Assembly (NCBI GenBank): GCA_016178705.1
Contig: JACOST010000014.1
Location: 186,001 to 250,000 of the forward strand
Length of the DNA: 64,000 nucleotides
From: Deltaproteobacteria bacterium
Lineage (GTDB): Bacteria; Desulfobacterota; Binatia; HRBIN30; JACQVA1
Direction: 5' to 3'
Position numbers and translations under genes: made by a program. Under the pieces are notes generated by a model. That model made no database searches, was not told the origin of the DNA, and saw only the letters and a list, made by a program, of their open reading frames with translations. Shown here one piece after another: positions 32,040-34,277 of the stretch; position 1 is the stretch's first letter; every line of letters begins with the position of its first letter.

Positions 32040-32957
32040 CTATGCGAGCAGCTCGCGTGCCGCTCGCACGATGCCGTCGGCGTCGATGCCGTGAATGCGC
32101 AAGAGATCGGGATAGGGTTCGACTTCCGTGCAAAATACATCGCGCACGCCCACCCGCCGCAAGCGGCCGACACCCAACTCGGCGATCACCTCGGCGACCG
32201 CGCCACCGAGGCCGCCGATCACCGAGTGTTCTTCGGCGGTAACTAGCCGCCCGGTCTCGCGCGCGGCGCGTTCGATCGCCGTGCGATCGAGCGGTTTGAG
32301 CGTGTGCACGTTGAGCACGCGCGCACTGATGCCGTCGGTTTTGAGCAGGTCATGCGCCGCCAGCGCAGACGCGACTGGCGCGCCGGTGGCGATGAGAGTC
32401 AGGTCTTTGCCCTCGCGCATCGTCACCACTTCGCCGATGCGAAACGGCGCATCGTAGCCGTCGATCGAGCCGAGGAAACCGAGGCGCACGTAAACCGGAC
32501 CATCGCTGGCTGCGGCCGCGCGCACGGCACGGGTGGCCTCGTTCGCATCGGCGGGCGACAGGATGGTCAGCCCCGGGATCGTCCGCAGCAGAGCGATGTC
32601 TTCCATCGCGTGGTGCGTGGCGCCCCACGGCCCGGCTTCGAGACCCGCGAACGGGGCGAGGATCTTCACGTTGTTGCGGTTGTACGCGCAGTCGTCGCGA
32701 ATCTGTTCGAAGCCGCGCATGGAGACGAACGGCGCCATCGCGATCACGAACGGCAGCTTGCCGGCGTGCGCCAGCCCGGCTGCGACCCCGACGAGGTTCT
32801 CTTCGCTGATGCCGACATCAAAGTGGCGCGTGGGGAAGCGTTCGGTGAACGCGCCGACCGGTCCGAAGTCCTGCGTCACCAACACCACGTGGGGGTTGTG
32901 CTCCGCCAGTTCTACCAACACATCGGCCGACGACATGGCTGCGACGTACCCGCTCAT
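32040..32957 (-). CDS. Transketolase, C-terminal subunit
   Basis: A protein of 305 aa covering the pyrimidine-binding and C-terminal domains of a split transketolase. The features SEENLVGVAAGLAHAGKLPFV (catalytic Glu of the Pyr domain), FAGLEAGPWGATHHAMEDIA and VTAEEHSVIGGLGGAVAE are typical of half-size TktB subunits. The ATG at 32957 has AGGAGG directly upstream, preferred over the GTG at 32963. It works with the N-terminal subunit encoded at 33474-34277, from which it is separated by a 505-bp inserted cassette. Substrate (pentose phosphates or a specialised ketol) not determined. Confidence 0.88.
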   Translation of the reverse strand: MSGYVAAMSSADVLVELAEHNPHVVLVTQDFGPVGAFTERFPTRHFDVGISEENLVGVAAGLAHAGKLPFVIAMAPFVSMRGFEQIRDDCAYNRNNVKILAPFAGLEAGPWGATHHAMEDIALLRTIPGLTILSPADANEATRAVRAAAASDGPVYVRLGFLGSIDGYDAPFRIGEVVTMREGKDLTLIATGAPVASALAAHDLLKTDGISARVLNVHTLKPLDRTAIERAARETGRLVTAEEHSVIGGLGGAVAEVIAELGVGRLRRVGVRDVFCTEVEPYPDLLRIHGIDADGIVRAARELLA

Positions 32958-32970
32958 GGACACCTCCTAC

Positions 32971-33475
32971 GATTGCGGATTGGGGAACTCGGAATGCGGA
33001 ATGCGGAGTTCGGAATGCGGAATGTTTGAATGGTGATCATGCGCGTCGTTTGTTTTGTCTAGCGGTCTTGATCGACGAGACGGTCATGGCGACCAGTTCG
33101 TTGGCCTCGGTGAGCAGCGTGGCAACGCGTTCCGGTCGTGCCAGTCGTGATTCGACGAGTAGCTCCATCCAATAGATCGACTCGTGCGCTTCTTCCTCAA
33201 CGACTCCCATCTTCGCCACAAAATCAGCCCTCGACCGTGCGCGACAGGCCGCGCGGTAGTTCGCGCCGACAGAGGTGCCACACCGCAACAGTCGTCTACC
33301 GATCACATCGCCCGTTCGGCCCACCGGCAACTCTTTCACGAGATCGATCACGCGCAGCGCAAACACTCTGGTCCGACGCTGCAACTCAAGGCTAGCCATT
33401 CACTCCGCATTCCAAATTCAGTATCCCAAATTCCGCATTCCGCATTCCCCATTCCGCATTCGGCACTCCGCAATC
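32971..33475. mobile_element. Inverted-repeat-bounded four-helix-bundle cassette
   Basis: A 505-bp segment with perfect 9-bp inverted ends GATTGCGGA (32971-32979) and TCCGCAATC (33467-33475). Each end continues into iterated GGAATGC/GCATTCC units (to ~33033 on the left, from ~33397 on the right), the two arrays being inverse to each other. The only gene inside encodes a four-helix-bundle protein. The right end touches the stop codon of the transketolase N-half; the left end stops just before the Shine-Dalgarno site of the C-half. No transposase is present. Confidence 0.7.
33037..33399 (-). CDS. Four-helix-bundle protein (23S rRNA intervening-sequence/S23 family)
   Basis: A protein of 120 aa. 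It shows the family layout: LELQRRTRVFALRVIDLVKELP, then the signature GTSVGANYRAACRARSRADFVAKMGVVEEEAHESIYWMELL, and a last helix with a basic tail (QNKRRA). The family is encoded in 23S rRNA intervening sequences, and relatives include Avd of diversity-generating retroelements. It forms pentameric, nucleic-acid-binding bundles in known cases. It is the sole gene of the inverted-repeat cassette and is co-oriented with the transketolase operon. Biological role unknown. Confidence 0.88.
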   Translation of the reverse strand: MASLELQRRTRVFALRVIDLVKELPVGRTGDVIGRRLLRCGTSVGANYRAACRARSRADFVAKMGVVEEEAHESIYWMELLVESRLARPERVATLLTEANELVAMTVSSIKTARQNKRRA

Positions 33476-34277
33476 AACCAAGCGCGCTGAGCGTGCGCTC
33501 GACCTCTTCGTCGCTCAGCCACGTGTAGTGCGCGCGTGGCGTGCCTTCGATGCCGGGCACCCCTTTGCCCTTCACCGTGTTGGCGATGATGACGGTCGGC
33601 CCGGAGCGGGCCGGGACGGTGGCCAGGGCCTCGACGATTGCGCGCATGCTGTGACCGTCGATCTCGATCGCGTTCCAGCGGAACGCCCGCCATTTGTCGG
33701 CGAGCGGATCGAGCGGCATGATGCGATCGACCGCTCCGCCGGCTTGGAAGCGATTGTAGTCGACGATCGCGATCAGGTTCTCGGTGGGAAAACGCGGCGC
33801 TGAAAGCGCAGCCTCCCACACGGTGCCCTCTTGTAACTCGCCGTCGCCGAGCAACACCACCGTGCGGGAACCTGATTGGTCGAGCGCTTCGGCGATGGCG
33901 ATGCCGACGCCGACCGACAACGCGTGGCCGAGCGAGCCGGTCGCGAACTCGACCCCCGGCGCCTTGTGGGTCGGATGGCCGGCGAGCCGGCTGCCGGACT
34001 TGCCCGAATTGGCGAGTTCCGACGCATCGATCTTGCCCAGCTCGACCATGCACGCGTGCAGCGCGGTGACCGCGTGGCCCTTGCTCATCAGGAAGCGGTC
34101 GCGCTTCCGCGCCCCGTCTTCGAGCTGCAGGTAATGAAAGAACAGCGCGGCCATAATGTCGGCGCACGACATCGCCCCGCCGAGATGCGCGAAGTACGAT
34201 CCGGCGACGGTGACGATGTGGCGGCGCAGCGTCGCCGCGCGTCGTTCGAGTGCTTGAATGTCCGCCGTGGTGTTCAT
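33474..34277 (-). CDS. Transketolase, N-terminal subunit
   Basis: A protein of 267 aa, the thiamin-diphosphate-binding PP domain of a split transketolase. GSLGHALSVGVGIA, the GDGELQEG...WEA ThDP-Mg motif and VDYNRFQAGG are intact; the N-terminal HIVTVAGSYFAHLGGAMSCADIMAALFF is canonical. AAGGAGGG lies before the ATG at 34277. It partners with the C-half at 32040-32957. It follows the alpha/beta hydrolase gene by 28 bp, within the same minus-strand operon. Confidence 0.9.
   Translation of the reverse strand: MNTTADIQALERRAATLRRHIVTVAGSYFAHLGGAMSCADIMAALFFHYLQLEDGARKRDRFLMSKGHAVTALHACMVELGKIDASELANSGKSGSRLAGHPTHKAPGVEFATGSLGHALSVGVGIAIAEALDQSGSRTVVLLGDGELQEGTVWEAALSAPRFPTENLIAIVDYNRFQAGGAVDRIMPLDPLADKWRAFRWNAIEIDGHSMRAIVEALATVPARSGPTVIIANTVKGKGVPGIEGTPRAHYTWLSDEEVERTLSALG

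Follow-up and report, generated by a model that had tools for sequence, protein, structure and literature searches.

A gene for an S23 protein between inverted heptamer arrays, inserted between the halves of a split transketolase: a probable small mobile DNA element

The two halves of a split transketolase, TktN and TktC, are encoded on the minus strand of the 64,000-nucleotide stretch of deltaproteobacterial DNA analysed here (the window). Between tktN and tktC lies a 505-bp unit (32971-33475) that carries a single gene of the S23 family within inverted repeats. How did such a cassette come to lie between two cistrons, and by what means could it move? The locus has the following features.

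32040-32957, minus strand: TktC half of transketolase (Transket_pyr and Transketolase_C), the host gene downstream of the insert
32963-32968, minus strand: Shine-Dalgarno-like AGGAGG of TktC, directly outside the insert (compare GGAGGTG at the empty site L041)
32971-33024, minus strand: downstream arm, made of tandem heptamers that read GCATTCC on the coding strand, with the 9-bp inverted end at 32971-32979
33037-33399, minus strand: S23/IVP four-helix-bundle gene of 120 amino acids, from PF05635 and TIGR02436 matches and a structure model
33401-33475, minus strand: upstream arm, made of tandem heptamers that read GGAATGC on the coding strand, with the 9-bp inverted end at 33467-33475
33474-33476, minus strand: TGA stop codon of TktN, made in part by the cassette end
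33474-34277, minus strand: TktN half of transketolase, the host gene upstream of the insert, which lacks about three C-terminal residues compared with the two closest relatives

The ends of the unit form a perfect 9-bp inverted repeat, GATTGCGGA (32971-32979) and TCCGCAATC (33467-33475), which is nested in imperfect arms of 46-55 nt with a complementarity of 74-83%, depending on the register. The arms contain tandem arrays of period 7, with 7.3 copies at 32974-33024 and 9.9 copies at 33404-33472, and the last heptamer unit of the upstream arm supplies a GGAG right before the S23 start. With up to two mismatches, GGAATGCGGAATG has 13 matches in the window, 11 of them in the cassette, compared with 2.16 expected. 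None of 100 shuffles reached 13, and this result, together with the periodicity of S23 flanks relative to control flanks described below, rules out a chance origin of the window repeats. The preliminary description of this DNA, made from its letters, had placed the cassette at the correct coordinates, and its inverted ends, arrays on both sides and single S23 gene are all recovered by repeat and profile analysis.

The encoded protein scores 52.5 bits against PF05635 (cut-off 33.8) and 77.6 bits against TIGR02436 (cut-off 24). Its structure model consists of four helices (pLDDT 93.3) and matches the S23 structures 2rld (E 3.6e-06) and 2gsc (E 4.5e-03), both entries listing five chains; Avd (4dwl, also 8ub7) is among the structural matches. 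According to PMC4990558, the S23 protein of Xanthomonas forms a homopentamer, each subunit being a four-helix bundle. In the genome to which the window belongs (G000, 98% complete), ten TIGR02436 hits correspond to nine genes, one of which is split in two. The profile phrog_3206 matches the protein of one of these (L002) but not the window protein, and the PADLOC defence models gave no match for two S23 proteins.

TktN has matches in 37 of 38 other genomes, many of them with remote transketolases. The cassette is absent from all 12 split-transketolase junctions read after tktN (L041-L052). In the genome with the closest ortholog (G008, TktN 75% identical), tktN and tktC overlap by ATGA without an insert, and in G007 (70% identical) they overlap by GTGA, again without an insert. 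The junction reads ..GTTGGAGGTGAACTCATGAGCGGC in G008, and in the window ..CTTGGT, the cassette and then ..GTAGGAGGTGTCCATGAGCGGG; TktN ends in ..SALG in the window and in ..AALEVNS and ..AALGATP in the two closest relatives. The cassette is an insertion into a junction that is joined in relatives. Judging from these sequences, it probably fell within the last tktN codons, just before the TktC ribosome site nested there. The insert shortened TktN, provided its stop codon and spared the ribosome site of TktC, whose start is the ATG at 32957, with an in-frame GTG upstream at 32963. The preliminary description had considered both the stop codon and the ribosome site intact. The latter holds, as AGGAGG (32963-32968) lies unchanged just outside the insert; the former is incorrect, because the TGA (33476-33474) overlaps the cassette end and TktN is truncated to ..SALG. 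The empty sites that it suggested looking for exist in the two closest relatives, and a discrete inserted unit without a transposase, as it described, is borne out. The cassette is flanked by CTTGGT and GTAGG, with no readable target duplication, the nearest empty sites being just 70-75% identical as protein. By eye, the junction of another genome (G015, L043) contains, after the tktN stop, a short S23-less run of GAGCACG-like heptamers that resembles the arms of another S23 gene of that genome (L093).

Copies with like arms, which had also been proposed as a check, are present at further S23 loci. By eye, six of the eight other S23 genes of the same genome (L002-L006, L008) have inverted 7-letter runs around them, all with different heptamers (GGGGTTA, GAAAGCT, GGGAGAC, GTGAGTC, CAGAGAC and AGGAGTC); L010 is accompanied by a palindromic run, L011 by a longer one that is imperfect. 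We gathered S23 loci from relatives, from a phylum sample, in which S23 is present in 187 of 395 genomes (E 1e-15), and as 80 named loci of many phyla. This sample is non-random, as it comprises the 80 loci nearest to the window subfamily, the 30 best hits of the phylum search and otherwise the best hits of relatives. Two sets were analysed, one of 146 loci and one of 165 loci for arrays, which adds 8 plasmid loci. Both leave out exact duplicates and partial matches (L008, L104, L108, L113, L114, L116, L123, L151, L170, L179 and L212), and the 146-locus set also leaves out loci with less than 200 nt of flank; L010, L011 and L087 were missed by the S23 profile used for the locus set.

S23 genes at large tend to have heptamer arrays as flanks. 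Lag 7 gives the best self-match of the 200-nt flanks in 103 of the 146 loci and lag 14 in another 19 (122 together), whereas lag 7 or 14 is best in 22 of 131 control flanks taken 700 nt away. Mean scores are 31.4 for S23 flanks and 10.2 for controls at lag 7, and 25.3 and 9.7 at lag 14; for all other lags from 3 to 20 the mean never exceeds 12.0. The control 99% level for the lag-7 score (44) is pushed up by a few control-flank arrays and is exceeded by only 7 of the 146 loci. For the inverted-repeat score, 97 of the 146 own flank pairs exceed the control 99% level, compared with 46 of 437 swapped pairs, and 49 loci fail it. At a stricter threshold, arrays occur on both sides of 84 of the 165 loci. 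The two arms agree in at least six of seven unit bases at 66 of these 84 loci but in only 134 of 1,657 swapped pairs under the same selection, which rules out independent slippage on either side. In 60 of the 66 loci the upstream arm contains more G than C, and in three the opposite. Arms have a median length of 31 nt (quartiles 24 and 37-39), or about four to five heptamers. In register they match at a median of 0.857, and at 0.719 when shifted by 7, although the test is weak because the register was preselected as the best; a shift by 7 was equal or better in 3 of 95 arm pairs.

Some loci show other forms. The flanks of L096 consist of 8-mers (TCTTGGGG) instead of 7-mers, and lag 8 is best in 11 of the 146 loci. 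The S23 genes of L008, L098 and L116 are disrupted by stops or frameshifts, with arms still visible at L008 and L098, which thus appear as decaying copies. On plasmids of Planktothrix agardhii (L236-L238), an S23 gene is found within a defence locus, with drmD and a PglX/MmeI gene as its neighbours; it is bracketed by GATTTAC- and GGGATTG-like arrays, which vary in length between strains.

The S23 gene moves with its arms as a unit, and the two diverge jointly. For the 77 loci whose two arms agree in at least five of seven bases, a Mantel test of heptamer distance against S23 similarity gives r 0.49 (p 0.0005). Of the pairs with less than 20% S23 identity, 0.3% have units agreeing in at least six of seven bases; this fraction climbs to 6% at 40-50%, 18% at 50-60%, 39% at 60-70% and 17 of 19 pairs at 70-90%. 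The S23 tree, built without L151, L170 and L179, has 39 phylum changes for 73 rows in 19 phyla (rows lacking a ranked phylum left aside), compared with a mean of 51.9 and a lowest value of 46 in 200 shuffles, and is best read as much transfer plus some vertical signal. In this same tree, a quick one of the named loci, the 11 nearest S23 neighbours of the window gene are spread over Nitrospinota, Thermodesulfobacteriota, Rhodothermota, Hydrogenedentota, Verrucomicrobiota, Planctomycetota, Pseudomonadota and one unranked record. Seven of the 11 have a readable arm unit, which is GGAAT-like (GGAATGC-like) in six, from Nitrospinota, Rhodothermota, Verrucomicrobiota, Pseudomonadota and an unranked deltaproteobacterial record; the exception is L134 (GAAGGCG).

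At one plasmid site, near-identical replicons differ in whether they carry the unit, and a short target duplication accompanies it. In a family of Nostocales conjugative plasmids, an S23 unit of about 0.42 kb lies between two genes in L239 (Trichormus variabilis), L240 (an identical stretch) and L246 (Scytonema NIES-4073), and it is absent from plasmids of about 97% identity, six records matching in two pieces. The empty site reads AAAAAGTAATTAACAAATAA in all five of these six records that were read (L241-L244 and L247), and at the filled site the left side reads GTAATAAA and the right side GTAATTAA. Two variants of the filled site contain a broken S23 remnant (L245, left flank GTAATTAG) and an S23-less hairpin (L249, left flank ATAATTAA). 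The direct repeat at the unit ends measures 5 bp if exact, or 8 bp with one mismatch per left copy. On plasmid2 of Aulosira laxa (L248), a unit 82% identical over 416 bp lies in different surroundings, with the match ending at the arms; by eye, it also cut the upstream gene short and supplied its own stop codon. Compared with empty sites, four plasmid sites show one clean duplication, small target changes at sites 2 and 3 and an ambiguous picture at site 4. At a fifth, L253 (1415-1882), the S23 unit stands in place of 328 bp of a DNA cytosine methyltransferase gene that is whole in L330.

Among congeners, no clean empty site was found for L071 or L092, where the match tables show partial flanks or S23 present as well. 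The Planktothrix plasmids gave no empty site either, all three matching records covering the whole query including S23, and the nrd site of N. edaphicum matched nothing but itself. At L070, L072 and L090, the S23 unit has a long open frame on either side, and the two frames resemble parts of one gene, which at L070 and L072 is DNA methylase-like by eye (DPACGSGHFL-like motif); entry of S23 units into coding sequence may occur too. On a Nostoc plasmid, an S23 gene between nrdB and nrdA (L251:1471-1839) is on the strand opposite to both and breaks the orientation bias of S23 loci given below.

Heptamer arrays also occur away from S23 genes. The window genome contains 28 occurrences of GGAATGCGGAATG and none of its reversed control, and several of these sites are, by eye, short hairpins without S23. 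In 400 kb of contig C28, 22 array segments have period 7 and 15 have period 14, compared with 1, 1, 2 and 4 at periods 8, 10, 11 and 13; periods 6, 9 and 12, with 10, 4 and 12 segments, are multiples of three, as expected of coding DNA. Five inverted array pairs of C28 enclose loops of 20-54 nt, which leave no room for S23. Genomes were called S23-free if they had no match at E 0.001 (seven genomes) or at E 1e-15 (G160, G161 and G162). Two S23-free genomes have 0 and 2 period-7 segments per 100 kb and two S23-bearing genomes 3 and 5; at a looser threshold the values are 1 and 5 against 4 and 5, with G162 and G459 both at 5. Arrays are sparse in these 100-kb samples, which are too small to separate the groups.

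Bursts of arrays are found in few genomes. GGAWTGCGGAWTGCGG occurs in 12 of 148 genomes of the class, and six of them contain at least 16 such arrays (G012 53, G000 28, G045 26, G047 26, G018 17 and G046 16). The three class genomes seen with a GGAWTGC-armed S23 gene (G000, G012 and G018) all fall within these six, while in G045, G046 and G047 (84-88% complete), with 16-26 GGAWTGC arrays, no S23 gene of that heptamer was detected. A query with L092 found 70 places in G005, mostly its CGTGAAC arms; the counts for three congeners were 1, 1 and 4, and no arm was matched there. A dispersed repeat of about 100-130 bp at L071:2300-2430, with many matches across seven genomes of genus g19, is apparently unrelated to the S23 unit.

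We consider it probable that the cassette is a single copy of a small mobile DNA element, one that has no transposase and whose S23 gene lies between inverted tandem 7-mer arrays. We infer that S23 binds the heptamers and drives movement; no catalytic domain for such movement was found. The S23 ring, a pentamer in solved relatives, would bind the four to five heptamers of each arm and keep the ends together, and this arm length suggests one heptamer per S23 subunit. Nucleases and polymerases of the host or of other elements would then cut, copy and insert the unit at the DNA level, aided by S23, which may also move S23-less hairpins in trans. That the two arms mirror each other would stem from one being copied from the other in hairpin replication. 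Where orientation was scored, as judged by the longest open frame, S23 is co-oriented with its upstream neighbour at 103 of 113 loci and with its downstream neighbour at 88 of 108. Sites between co-oriented genes would be retained, since S23 is then transcribed with the operon. The bias may reflect such selection for expression and leaves room for transcription to play a role.

The arrays might instead arise from slippage and hairpin copying, with S23 as a passenger or array-binding regulator that merely persists inside them. The commonness of S23-less arrays fits this proposal, as do published heptamer repeats in Xanthomonas and Nostoc (GGGAATC, GGGGAYT) and in Beggiatoaceae (TAACTGA), which were reported without S23 (PMC4692102, PMC4679880). 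These resemble S23 arms in that they are mostly intergenic, period-7 arrays that form inverted pairs, with 70 and 75 convergent inverted pairs counted in two genomes of Xanthomonas (PMC4692102, PMC4679880); on a term search, the main texts of these papers mention neither S23 nor IVS, and they give the arrays no role as arms of mobile units. In Xanthomonas, 90% of the repeats are described as lying between the same genes in two species, with less change than in control regions and without a general association with mobile elements (PMC4692102); being mostly conserved in place, they do not fit recent movement there. Against a passenger role, the gene inserts with the arms, recurs with them elsewhere and diverges with them across phyla, and we regard this explanation as unlikely.

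The preliminary description had raised RNA-mediated movement as a possibility, and our data disfavour it. By this route, the transcript would fold on its arms, be excised like an rRNA IVS, then be reverse-transcribed and reinserted, with S23 acting like Avd. S23 shares its fold with the Avd protein of diversity-generating retroelements (4dwl, 8ub7), and the co-orientation of S23 with its neighbours would suit such a route. The cassette transcript folds better than 100 of 100 shuffles (z -3.24), so that the arms can indeed pair in RNA as first described, yet this is expected of any inverted repeat of such length. Selection for RNA pairing on the coding strand should favour G.U among arm mismatches, but G.U (106) and A.C (121) are about equally frequent (p 0.35; 101 loci, 3,682 pairs), and there is therefore no sign that RNA pairing maintains the arms. 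No match to the reverse transcriptase profile RVT_1 (PF00078) was found in the 98%-complete window genome, nor in 10 of 26 genomes with at least three S23 matches, three of these ten being single contigs. This rules out a reverse transcriptase as a requirement for a genome to carry S23 units and leaves the RNA route distinctly improbable.

We find it similarly hard to credit that a Y1 (HUH) transposase of the IS200/RAYT type mobilizes the arms in trans. Y1_Tnp (PF01797) matches are present in 23 of the 26 S23-rich genomes and in 2 of 10 S23-free ones, and the window genome has six, with no tie to the cassette; overall mobile-element load confounds this association. Moreover, the single-contig genome G423 has four S23 matches and zero Y1 matches, and the S23-free genome G161 has 11 Y1 matches but no period-7 excess in 100 kb. 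Insertion of IS200/IS605 elements is expected to leave no target duplication, and the 5-8 bp duplication at plasmid site 1 speaks against them. Finally, it is very improbable that the insert has been co-opted by the operon as a stem for processing or regulation that separates tktN from tktC, in spite of its location between cistrons and its strong RNA stem, as it is missing from the 12 split-transketolase junctions read and like units lie in unrelated places, some within genes.

How does a mobile S23 element relate to known systems? MITEs and REP/REPIN elements are small, have inverted ends and lack a transposase of their own. The cassette shares these properties, and S23-less hairpins resemble non-autonomous copies, but the class differs in that its tandem 7-mer arms vary between copies and that no transposase of theirs was identified. 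In diversity-generating retroelements, the likeness is in Avd, which has the same fold as the window S23 protein (TM 0.74-0.79, normalised to the query), and PF05635 is described as resembling Avd (PMC10053308); without an RVT_1 match in its genome, the cassette does not have the reverse transcriptase of such elements.

The closest parallel is with the rRNA intervening sequences of Coxiella and Leptospira, which likewise have an S23 ORF within complementary ends. The Coxiella IVS is described as a selfish sequence of about 0.43 kb in 23S rRNA with an S23 ORF, cut by RNase III at its stem; directly before this ORF it has tandem heptamers (GACAGAT), the number of which varies between strains (PMC4990558). 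IVP ORFs are also reported in 16S and 23S insertions of CPR bacteria (PMC11270868). Those sequences are located in rRNA, whereas the window cassette lies between the protein genes tktN and tktC, so it is not an rRNA IVS; it appears to work like one outside rRNA and, taken as a class of mobile DNA, may amount to more. S23 loci in general have inverted arrays whose heptamer is specific to the locus, and in our best reading the S23-coding rRNA intervening sequences are a special case of the small mobile S23 DNA element. S23 genes joined to inverted heptamer arms outside rRNA were not found in the literature searched, which did not include preprints. A Flavobacterium columnare S23 gene is listed between two unrelated genes (PMC5524665), and 18 IVP genes are reported in cas loci, one of them between cmr3 and cmr2 (PMC3936711).

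Tentatively, and with the balance of evidence still on the other side, one can go further and propose a very widespread, undescribed class that moves with neither a transposase nor a reverse transcriptase, its entire machinery consisting of the S23 ring and the heptamer arms that belong to it. The rRNA IVS and the heptamer repeats of cyanobacteria, Xanthomonas and others would then be offshoots, and the function of S23 would be heptamer recognition. S23 proteins have solved structures yet no known function, and heptamer arrays have repeatedly been reported without a cause; the link between the two gives both a testable role. If it is true, S23 genes within other operons, for example those described in cas loci (PMC3936711), could be insertions rather than functional partners.
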